Assembly: GCA_029559475.1 (NCBI GenBank) | Contig: JAKQBN010000063.1 | Coordinates: 1-32,621 of the forward strand | Length of the DNA stretch: 32,621 bases | Direction of reading: 5' to 3' | From: a bacterium | GTDB taxonomy: Bacteria; UBA4055 | Part shown: positions 15,829 through 20,361 of the stretch, piece by piece | Numbering within the stretch: position 1 is the stretch's first letter | Layout of the letters: every line of letters starts with the position of its first letter | The notes under the pieces: model-generated | What the model was told of the DNA's origin: nothing | Seen by the model: only the letters and a program-made list of their open reading frames with translations | The model's database searches: none | Program-made: the position numbers and the translations under genes

Positions 15829-15902
15829 ATGAAGTTGAAAGGAATTAACCTTTTAACGACTTTTTTCGATGAAAATCAGACATATCAAGATTGAGGAAAT
15901 TA

Positions 15903-16604
15903 ATGCGTAAAACCATTAATGAAAAATTACAGATAATAAAAGAAGCGACAACTAAAAAGAAAATAAAGATGCTTTCTCTGAAGCACGGAGTATCTGTTAA
16001 AACGATCAGAACATGGTTAAAACAATCTAAACCGGAAGTTTGTATTAGCGGAAAGGATAGTATTAATAAAGGAGACATTAAAGAATCTCCGGTACTAAAC
16101 TCGAGACCATTCTCCTGCATAGTCCTTAAAATATCGGGCATTACTGTTCCGGCTAAGATCAACGGCGGGGTTAAAATTTTCAGATATCTGATCAAAGATC
16201 GTAATTACGGTTTTGTTTTCGCAGCGTATTCATTAGAAAATAACAGAAGTAGAATAGACACCTTTGCAGAAACAGTTGTACGGGAACTCAAAAAGACAGG
16301 TTATTCTGTAGAAAAAATTCTGACCGATAAAACGGTTCAGTTGTGCGATCTCAAGAACGTAGAACATTGTGTTCGGAGCTATAGCGAACTTAAAAGACAC
16401 TTTATTTTCTCGAGGAAAAAAAATAACTACATAAAAGACAGACAGAAATACGAATCTTGGAGTGATTTTATATTTGATTCTCTATCTACCGTGTGTAAAA
16501 TCAATGAACAAAACTCGTGTCTCAATTCGGTTTCAGGCAAAAAGATCATAACAGTTTTGAAGAGCCTTAATTTCAAATTACATAATGATTCTATGTGCAT
16601 GTAA
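15903..16604 (+). CDS. HTH plus degenerate integrase-like (RNase H fold) protein
   Basis: 233 aa. A TGAGGA site lies 5 bases before the ATG at 15903. Residues about 5-45 are a helix-turn-helix of the kind that starts IS3/IS481-type transposases (SLKHGVSVKTIRTWLKQSK). About 70-220 follow the order of an rve/DDE core: strands, then YGFVFAAYSLENNR (102-115), helix DTFAETVVRELKKTGY and KILTDKTVQL (138-147), then a tail like the yN-x-n-RPH-L-G-PlevL end of IS481 transposases (KINEQNSCLNSVSGKKIITVLK). The first catalytic Asp is not seen (VLKISG in its place), the second is Asp142, and the position of the final Glu holds DRQK. So it is probably catalytically dead and kept, if functional, as a DNA-binding protein. 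It has no inverted ends around it. The following TPR gene is in the same reading frame after a single TAA. Confidence 0.6.
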   Translation: MRKTINEKLQIIKEATTKKKIKMLSLKHGVSVKTIRTWLKQSKPEVCISGKDSINKGDIKESPVLNSRPFSCIVLKISGITVPAKINGGVKIFRYLIKDRNYGFVFAAYSLENNRSRIDTFAETVVRELKKTGYSVEKILTDKTVQLCDLKNVEHCVRSYSELKRHFIFSRKKNNYIKDRQKYESWSDFIFDSLSTVCKINEQNSCLNSVSGKKIITVLKSLNFKLHNDSMCM

Positions 16605-18127: not shown

Positions 18128-18191
18128 AGCATCCCCGAATGCTACTCTCACTCCCCTAGTGAAAAAAAGACAGAGAAATCTGTCTTTTTTT
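18128..18191 (+). ncRNA. Candidate small RNA with two C-rich loops and a terminator
   Basis: Three hairpins lie end to end. First, AGCAT (18128-18132) and ATGCT (18139-18143) enclose CCCCGA. Second, CACT (18149-18152) and AGTG (18158-18161) enclose CCCCT. Third is the terminator. Exposed CCCC loops are typical of small RNAs that pair with G-rich ribosome sites. The sequence lies between the TPR gene and rpsO and has no coding frame. If the promoter is not real, this is only a decorated 3' end of the TPR message. Confidence 0.4.
18162..18191 (+). terminator. Strong intrinsic terminator upstream of rpsO
   Basis: A perfect 13-base-pair stem, 18162-18174 with 18179-18191 (core AGACAGA/TCTGTCT), closed by a GAAA tetraloop; its 3' arm is a run of T. 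It ends the TPR transcript or the candidate small RNA and insulates rpsO. Confidence 0.85.
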
Positions 18192-18211
18192 ATTACCGGA
18201 AGAATCGTTTC

Positions 18212-18242
18212 TTGACATTTCAAAAACAAATTCGTAAATTTG
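18212..18242 (+). promoter_or_regulatory. Promoter of rpsO
   Basis: TTGACA (18212-18217), 17-base spacer, TAAATTTG (18235-18242): a consensus -35 box joined to a perfect TAnnTTTG box. The start point near 18248 places the whole three-way junction at 18259-18291 inside the leader. Confidence 0.7.
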
Positions 18243-18258
18243 CCGGTCTAAAATGATT

Positions 18259-18291
18259 CCGGCTCGGGTGAGATGGTATAATCCATGCTGG
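18259..18291 (+). promoter_or_regulatory. rpsO leader, predicted S15-binding three-way junction
   Basis: Contiguous pairing blocks form a three-way junction: outer helix CCGG (18259-18262) with CTGG (18288-18291, one G-U pair), hairpin CTC-GGGT-GAG (18263-18272), hairpin ATGG-TATAAT-CCAT (18273-18286), one unpaired G. S15 binds a three-way junction in 16S rRNA, and in several bacteria its mRNA leader imitates that site to repress translation when free S15 accumulates. The ribosome site AAAGGAG lies 16 bases downstream. The fold is my hand reading. Confidence 0.5.
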
Positions 18292-18319
18292 GCGGCAATT
18301 GAAAACAAAGGAGATACAA

Positions 18320-18592
18320 ATGATCAGTAAAGAAGTAAAAGCGGAGATAATGAAAAAGTACGGAAGTACTCCGACTGATTCAGGCAGACCTGAAGTTCAG
18401 ATCGTCATTATTTCTACAAGAGTTAAAGAACTTACAAATCACCTGATGGCGAACAAAAAAGACAATCATTCAAGAAGAGGTTTAAGACTGATGCTGGGTC
18501 AAAGAGGTAAACTGTTGAAATATCTTAAGGCATTGGATATTGCAAGATACAGAGCCTTGATCAAGGATCTGGAACTGAAAGACAGATACTAA
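18320..18592 (+). CDS. rpsO: 30S ribosomal protein S15
   Basis: 90 aa, the usual size. MISKEVKAEIMKKYGSTPTDSGRPEVQ is the standard S15 start; LTNHLMANKKDNHSRRGL and the KLLKYL...RYRALIKDL helices complete the four-helix protein. S15 binds 16S rRNA early in small-subunit assembly. The ATG at 18320 has an AAAGGAG site 5 bases upstream; an in-frame TTG at 18299 would precede that site and is not used. It is a single-gene transcript with its own promoter, a likely autoregulatory leader, and a terminator 20 bases after the stop. Its TAA shares bases with the stop of mrdA on the other strand (4-base convergent overlap). pnp, the usual neighbour, is absent. Confidence 0.97.
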   Translation: MISKEVKAEIMKKYGSTPTDSGRPEVQIVIISTRVKELTNHLMANKKDNHSRRGLRLMLGQRGKLLKYLKALDIARYRALIKDLELKDRY

Positions 18593-20361
18593 GGTTTATC
18601 AGATTTAACAGGCCCCTCTTCTGCAGGGGCTTTTTTATTTTTCGAATTGTACCAGAACTCGAAAATATCTTTCGCGATCAGAGCGGCCCCGCTTCCGTGC
18701 TGGCCGAATTCTTCGAATACAGTGACGGTTATCTCAGGATCATCGTATGGTCCGTAAGATGTGAACCACGCGTGATCATCACCGTGAGGATTCTGGGCAG
18801 TGCCTGTTTTGCCGGCGAAGCTGATAATGCTGCTTTTCGATCTTATTGCCGTACCGCCCCAAGTGTTTACAACGAGATACATTCCTTTTCTGACCACCGA
18901 AAGTATCTTAGGATCTAAATCTATGGTATCCGATGCTGTTGAATCAAAATACGCGAACTCTCCGTCATTTCCGTATTTATGAAGAAGGTGCGGCGTGAAT
19001 TTTATCCCGCCGTTCGCGATAATAGATGTGTAATTCGCTATTTGGAGAGGAGTGACTAAAAGCTCACCCTGCCCTATCATGAGGTTGGCGCTTCTTCCGT
19101 CAAGGTCGCCGGTTATTCTTTTTTTATAGTATTTAATATCAGGCACCAGTCCGCTTCTTTCGAATCTGAGATCTATTCCTGTCTTTTTCCCGAAGCCGAG
19201 CCTGTTTAAAGTGTTTTTCCATTTATCAAGATTTATTCTTATCGCGATATCATAAAAATATGTATCGCAGGACTGATATAACGCCGAGAGCATATCCACA
19301 TTACCGTGACCTCCCTGCCTGTTCCAGCATTTAATAAATCGGTTTCCGATCTGCATTCCCCCGGGGCAGTTAACCTTATCAGAAGGAGATTTGAGCTTCT
19401 GTTCAGTTGCGGCAAGAATAGTAGCCATTTTTATAACAGATCCCGGCGGATAAAGGCCCATGATAGTTTTATTATATAGTGGTTCAGCAGGATCTTCCGA
19501 CCATTTTTTCCATTCCTCTTTAGACAGTTTTTTATTAAACAGATCGACAGGATAATCAGGTTTACTTACCATCGCAAGGATCTCGCCGTTCTTACAGTTC
19601 TGCACGACAACCGAACCTGATTTTCCGCTCAATAATCTTTCTATGTACTGCTGAAGGGTCAGATCGAGGCTAAGATAAATATCTTTTCCCCTCTTTGCCT
19701 CCTTCCATTCCTCTTTTTTATATTCCGAGATCTTATTTCCCTTAACGTCTTTGATCTCCATCATCATTCCCTTCTCTCCCCTGAGTAGAGAATCGTAAAC
19801 GAATTCGATACCTTTTTTACCTACGAGATCCCCATAAGAAATGTCAGTTTTAAGCTCTTCTGCCTCTTTCGCCTCTCCGAGATAACCGAGAAGATGCGGC
19901 GCGGAATTTATTATGAATTTTCGGGACCATTCTTTTTTTATATAGATCCCTCTGAGTTCTTTTCTGTTCTCTGTGAATGATGAATATACAGAAAAATCAA
20001 TATCGCGCATAATTCTGAAAAATCTGTCAGCGTGAACTTCGGGAGCTGTCAGCATAGATAAAAGAGTGTCTTTTTCGATGCCGAGATTTTCAGTAACAAA
20101 AGAGAAAGAGCTTTCGTTCTTTAAAAACTGTTCGGGGATCGCATAAAGGTTATATGCGTACTGATTATCGATCAGAAGAGTGCCGTTCCTGTCGAATATC
20201 CGCCCTCTTGAAGGTTCGACGACAATAGTCCGGACACGGTTCAATTCCGATCTTTCTTTCAGATCTTCATCGAAGTGCTGAAGATATATGATCCTCGCCA
20301 GTATAATAACGAAGGCCGCAAGTGTAAGATAAAAAAATACTTTTACTCTTGAATGATCCAT
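18589..20361 (-). CDS. mrdA: Penicillin-binding protein 2 (elongation transpeptidase)
   Basis: 590 aa. One N-terminal membrane helix (about 9-27), a dimerisation/pedestal region beginning RTIVVEPSRGRIFDRNG, and a transpeptidase domain with all three motifs: S308-V-I-K311 in YPPGSVIKMA, S364-C-D366 in LYQSCDTYFYD, and K518-T-G520 in GKTGTAQN. It cross-links peptidoglycan during side-wall growth with RodA and the Mre proteins. It is the last gene of the minus-strand block, one base after mreD; rodA is not adjacent. Its final codons (APAEEGP region) carry the inverted repeat that serves as the rpsO terminator on the other strand. Confidence 0.95.
   Translation of the reverse strand: MDHSRVKVFFYLTLAAFVIILARIIYLQHFDEDLKERSELNRVRTIVVEPSRGRIFDRNGTLLIDNQYAYNLYAIPEQFLKNESSFSFVTENLGIEKDTLLSMLTAPEVHADRFFRIMRDIDFSVYSSFTENRKELRGIYIKKEWSRKFIINSAPHLLGYLGEAKEAEELKTDISYGDLVGKKGIEFVYDSLLRGEKGMMMEIKDVKGNKISEYKKEEWKEAKRGKDIYLSLDLTLQQYIERLLSGKSGSVVVQNCKNGEILAMVSKPDYPVDLFNKKLSKEEWKKWSEDPAEPLYNKTIMGLYPPGSVIKMATILAATEQKLKSPSDKVNCPGGMQIGNRFIKCWNRQGGHGNVDMLSALYQSCDTYFYDIAIRINLDKWKNTLNRLGFGKKTGIDLRFERSGLVPDIKYYKKRITGDLDGRSANLMIGQGELLVTPLQIANYTSIIANGGIKFTPHLLHKYGNDGEFAYFDSTASDTIDLDPKILSVVRKGMYLVVNTWGGTAIRSKSSIISFAGKTGTAQNPHGDDHAWFTSYGPYDDPEITVTVFEEFGQHGSGAALIAKDIFEFWYNSKNKKAPAEEGPVKSDKP
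18612..18636 (+). terminator. rpsO terminator, inside the mrdA coding end
   Basis: GCCCCT (18612-18617) pairs with AGGGGC (18625-18630) over a 7-base loop and is followed by six T (18631-18636), then ATTTTT. It is 20 bases past the rpsO stop and lies wholly inside the 3' end of mrdA, read on the opposite strand. Confidence 0.85.

Follow-up and report, generated by a model that had tools for sequence, protein, structure and literature searches.

The window analyzed here comprises 32,621 nucleotides of contig JAKQBN010000063.1 (assembly GCA_029559475.1), belonging to a genome of the little-studied phylum Candidatus Delongbacteria. On its forward strand, which also carries the promoter, leader element and terminator of the gene, lies rpsO (18320..18592), encoding the 90-residue ribosomal protein S15 (Pfam PF00312, E = 3.4e-29), the proposed effector and target of the leader element that is the subject of this analysis. 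The comparison set consists of 13 Delongbacteria species, some of them closely related, and rpsO is found in all 13. Upstream of the gene, a promoter composed of TTGACA and TAAATT separated by 17 bp (18212..18240) is followed by the GC-rich discriminator TGCCGGTC (18241..18248) and a Shine-Dalgarno sequence (AAGGAG, 18308..18313), while an intrinsic terminator at 18610..18632 closes the monocistronic unit. The original prediction had placed a regulatory element between a strong promoter and the ribosome site, and both signals as well as rpsO itself were located around it. A TTGACA/TTGACT-N17-(TATATT-like) −35/−10 pair occupies the same, fixed position in all 13 leaders, and the position following the −10 in the window suggests a transcription start at approximately 18246-18248. 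Two further observations concern the upstream region. At 18168-18195, 5' of the rpsO promoter, GACAGAGAAATCTGTC followed by a T run resembles a terminator belonging to the TPR-protein gene that comes before and is missing from the site scan, and a 237-residue ORF at 15891-16604 beside the TPR-repeat gene matches HTH_Tnp_1, a transposase-type helix-turn-helix, below the cut-off (E = 6e-4).

The rpsO leader contains a conserved irregular hairpin at 18254..18301 (covariance model match 18249-18302, 58.3 bits), which represents the putative S15-binding element. Its basal helix P1a pairs UGAUU (18254..18258) with AAUUG (18297..18301), with the aligned pair columns showing A-U in 7, G-C in 4 and G-U in 1 case. 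A single-nucleotide 3' bulge at 18296 (alignment column 50), C in the window and usually G in relatives, leads to P1b, the most covarying helix, formed by CCG (18259..18261) and CGG (18293..18295); the position of the bulge is conserved and the best pairing around it differs by species. On the 5' side, a bulged G at 18262 corresponds to 1-2 nucleotides in relatives and is absent in L007. The near-invariant helix P2 consists of CUCGG (18263..18267) and CUGGG (18288..18292), with mismatches occurring in L003, L006 and L007. At its upper end, the two G residues at 18266..18267 form the pairs G18266-U18289 and G18267-C18288, a GU/GC step that corresponds to the S15 recognition motif and is invariant in 13 of 13 species even as the S15 protein drops to ca. 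50% identity. P2 is joined through GUG/CAU pairing with bulges at A18271 and G18287 to the terminal hairpin P3 (GAU-GGUAUA-AUC, 18272..18283), which is of the GGAU/AUCC type in most relatives. The stem ends 6 nucleotides 5' of the Shine-Dalgarno sequence in the window, and 3-9 nucleotides 5' of the Shine-Dalgarno sequence, a conserved spacing, and 15-21 nucleotides 5' of the start codon across species. Folding from the predicted transcription start yields P2 in all 13 species and places the GU/GC pairs inside the hairpin by pairing probability in 12 of them (only 0.63-0.66 for the window sequence) and by minimum free energy (MFE) in L005. The Shine-Dalgarno sequence is free in most of these folds, including that of the window.

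The hairpin is supported by comparison of the 13 species. In alignment A2, 89% of cells are paired and 7 pairs contain double changes, amounting to 20 cells, and none of 500 shuffles matches the hairpin in paired cells, double-change cells or covariation score. Slid versions of the hairpin, used as a control, reach only 35-55% pairing, and RNAalifold returns the same helices with no structure supplied. P1b occurs as CCG/CGG, UCC/GGA and UUG/CAA in three groups, P1a shifts from A-U to G-C and P3 from G-C to A-U among relatives. With a hand-placed gap in P1b, the energy z-score against column shuffles is −6.0 (default) or −8.4 (RIBOSUM), and none of 2000 shuffles exceeds the observed covariation; the automatic covariance-model alignment gives an energy z-score of only −1.5, with covariation exceeded in about 2 of 1000, so that the strong energy signal depends on the hand-shifted gap. 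Parsimony on the rpsO tree assigns ca. 1-2 coincident steps to each covarying pair, meaning that independent changes are few. Phylogeny also correlates column pairs outside the structure; 5 of the 20 best pairs fall within it compared with about 0.3 expected (17/1326).

A covariance model of the element has exactly one match per genome in all 13 Delongbacteria, always at rpsO. Across 373 genomes of other families, the model yields 15 weak hits, none of them at rpsO, and no match is found near 96 other rpsO loci. The best hit outside the phylum (L125, G036 contig C98:53731-53808; E = 1.7e-4, 29.9 bits) is well separated from the rpsO of that genome and, like the other hits outside the phylum, was treated as a chance match. 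No Rfam family reaches its gathering score for the leader, and only weak hits below the cut-off are returned. The element displays features expected of an S15 ribosomal leader: an RNA structure that is conserved in the rpsO 5' UTR and found at rpsO only, compensatory changes in support of that structure, stemming from a limited number of independent events, and mimicry of one rRNA determinant, the GU/GC step, with the junction unsupported.

A stem at the 5' end of an mRNA can stabilize the transcript, and the hairpin could accordingly be kept for a purpose other than S15 binding, either 5'-end protection of the mRNA or recognition by another protein. We regard this as improbable. A pure stability stem needs neither an invariant GU/GC step nor a near-invariant P2 next to a freely changing P1b, and the element occurs only at rpsO in a single copy per genome.

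Alternative folds of the leader were also considered. The single-sequence MFE structure of 18240-18319 is a larger junction in which TTGCCG/CGGCAA closes GTC/GAT and CCGGC/GCTGG. It is very unlikely to be the functional structure, as it needs 18240-18245, which are located just past the −10 and upstream of the predicted start, the corresponding bases are part of the promoter in L025 and L111, and folding from that start gives the hairpin as the MFE family. The hairpin core begins 0-9 nucleotides past the −10 across species, which puts the expected transcription start at the 5' edge of P1a or immediately upstream and would make the conserved TTGSCG stretch mostly promoter discriminator; this removes the alternative fold using TTGCCG. 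In most species this discriminator (18241-18246 and equivalents) reads TGCCG or TGGCG after the −10, resembling stringent-control promoters, and it is absent in L025 and L111. Separately, a 5' hairpin that includes the discriminator is possible in several species (18240-18262 and L003, L010 and L011, e.g. GGCAUU/AAUGUU) and would compete with P1; it likewise requires bases 5' of the predicted start. Pairing of the 5' end (UUCU/GUCU) with the Shine-Dalgarno region (AGAA/AGAU), seen by eye in several species, was rejected: it fails in L009-L011, comprises only about 3 bp in L006 and L008 and has a 5' partner that is promoter discriminator in L025 and L111.

The original prediction envisaged a smaller structure, a compact three-way junction of CCGG/CTGG, CTC/GAG and ATGG/CCAT mimicking the S15 site of 16S rRNA. 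The window does contain the complementary segments (CCGG at 18259-62, CTC at 18263-65, GAG at 18270-72, ATGG at 18273-76, CCAT at 18283-86 and CTGG at 18288-91), and junction mimicry occurs in the S15 leaders of Thermus and Geobacillus (PMC4684408), but the fold itself did not hold up, and we give it even less credence than the larger junction. The covariation check in relatives revealed no compensating changes in the junction helices: in alignment A2, 74.5% of cells are paired with 2 double-change cells across the 13 relatives, which is no better than shuffles, of which 426 of 500 equal the junction helices on pairing and 290 of 500 on covariation. The CTC/GAG helix is mostly broken in relatives, its last pair being unpaired in 9 of 13. 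Energetically, the best fold disrupts the junction, which is matched by neither single-sequence MFE structure: it reaches −6.4 kcal/mol versus −10.5 kcal/mol for the MFE of the 33 nucleotides, and −7.9 versus −15.1 kcal/mol for the leader from the predicted start, a deficit of ca. 7 kcal/mol relative to the best fold. RNAalifold also picks the hairpin. Single-sequence folding energy is unremarkable (z of −0.9 to −1.3); the evidence for an element comes from the relatives, which support the different and larger structure at 18254-18301. The least probable explanation, conservation of promoter or initial-transcribed sequence at the DNA level and not of RNA, could appeal to a promoter and GC-rich discriminator likewise conserved at fixed spacing, but promoter function explains neither the compensatory changes in P1b and P1a nor a conservation that reaches about 55 bp past the predicted start.

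Within 16S rRNA, the GU/GC step of helix 22 is a secondary S15 site approximately one turn from the junction (PMC4684408), and the organism's own 16S rRNA contains the step as GGGGACAG/CUGUCUGG. Leader and helix 22 share the 5'-GG-3'/5'-CU-3' step as well as the GG that comes next on the 3' strand (CUGG). The h20/h21/h22 junction lies about one turn away from the step in helix 22; at that place, the leader instead possesses bulges and the stem base. The best reading of the sequence is that the leader mimics the GU/GC site, the helix 22 half of the S15 site, and not the junction. The leaders of E. coli and Rhizobium have this step as their common determinant, and a Geobacillus leader in which it is mutated no longer binds 3 out of 4 S15 proteins in vitro (PMC4684408).

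Published S15 leaders come from Gammaproteobacteria, Firmicutes, Thermus, Alphaproteobacteria, Actinobacteria, tentatively Chlamydia and Flavobacteria, and archaea. The alphaproteobacterial leader, exemplified by the Rra-RNA of Rhizobium radiobacter, similarly lies 5' of rpsO and contains a conserved stem-loop, H1, with a GU/GC required by S15 (PMC4137082, PMC4684408). In contrast to the single Delongbacteria hairpin with its Shine-Dalgarno sequence predicted to be unpaired, Rra-RNA depends on an additional hairpin, H2, the 3' strand of which covers the ribosome site. The lack of a second hairpin, the mostly unpaired Shine-Dalgarno sequence and the lack of any match of covariance model R1 at rpsO in alphaproteobacterial loci set the element apart from this type. 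The E. coli leader (RF00114) likewise offers a GU/GC motif to S15 and acts at initiation, but it forms a double-hairpin/pseudoknot extending into the coding region, and the window scores 12.8 bits against the RF00114 cut-off of 39.5. The Geobacillus and Thermus leaders are rpsO leaders bound by S15, as is proposed for Delongbacteria, and the Geobacillus leader places GU/GC about one turn from its junction (PMC4684408). Both are built on multi-stem junctions, in contrast to the Delongbacteria leader, where no conserved three-helix junction is found and a single hairpin is favored. Candidates from Flavobacteria and archaea are also rpsO leaders predicted by comparative genomics (Eckert and Weinberg, 2020; PMC7247131). 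They are from other lineages, with the archaeal ones resembling the junction (PMC7247131) and the flavobacterial ones set apart by lineage. Neither the E. coli type nor the three-way-junction or alphaproteobacterial type accommodates the leader, and we place it outside of all three, among the GU/GC-based leaders.

The S15 protein is consistent with recognition of this step. Residues H41, D48 and S51, which are credited with reading GU/GC (PMC4684408, PMC8470358), are invariant in the Delongbacteria proteins, as are G22 and Q27. In the two most divergent proteins (L025:1501-1806 and L111:1501-1806; G004 and G006), S15 contains a 12-residue insertion before the last helix, e.g. RRERSNPESGALEG, that is absent in the other species; the GU/GC hairpin is retained in both leaders. 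From the sequence evidence we consider it likely that the hairpin is a cis-acting site for free S15 through which the protein represses its own translation. The rpsO mRNA would begin with an irregular 5'-terminal hairpin bound by free S15, with loop-2 residues reading the invariant G-U/G-C step in P2 as they do in 16S helix 22. A second contact probably lies some one helical turn further down, close to the bulges and the base of P1; the P1a base is located ca. 10-11 pairs below the step, with an orientation that would match that of the 16S junction with respect to helix 22. Bound S15 would stabilize the hairpin, the base of which is positioned just upstream of the Shine-Dalgarno sequence, and thereby block initiation by the 30S subunit or trap it on the mRNA, so that excess S15 may shut off its own translation. 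For selected RNAs in reporters, binding of S15 close to the Shine-Dalgarno sequence suffices for regulation (PMC5100602).

Counting against an S15 switch is that a second structural determinant, a junction or pseudoknot of the kind that known S15 leaders usually carry, was not identified in the Delongbacteria leader; the GU/GC pairing probability in the window, the P2 mismatches in three relatives and a comparison set of only 13 sequences weigh against it as well. Overall, the S15 autoregulatory element of the original prediction very probably stands as a leader, while its junction mimicry does not. The prediction also concerned a phylum in which no S15 leader may have been described, and none appears in the titles and opening parts of the abstracts of the listed Delongbacteria papers. 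The hairpin is thus probably an undescribed switch for S15 self-regulation in this phylum.

S15 leaders are a classic example of how unrelated RNAs have converged on the same protein. On balance, we lean toward the view that the Delongbacteria leader constitutes a phylum-wide and structurally new class, a single 5'-terminal hairpin with GU/GC and flanking bulges that possesses neither junction nor pseudoknot and would be the simplest natural S15 switch to date. The minimal RNA of about 55 nucleotides could be tested in the S15 reporter systems already available in E. coli. A further natural solution, found in an uncultured phylum, would independently inform the question of whether the GU/GC step or the junction of the rRNA site suffices for such regulation.
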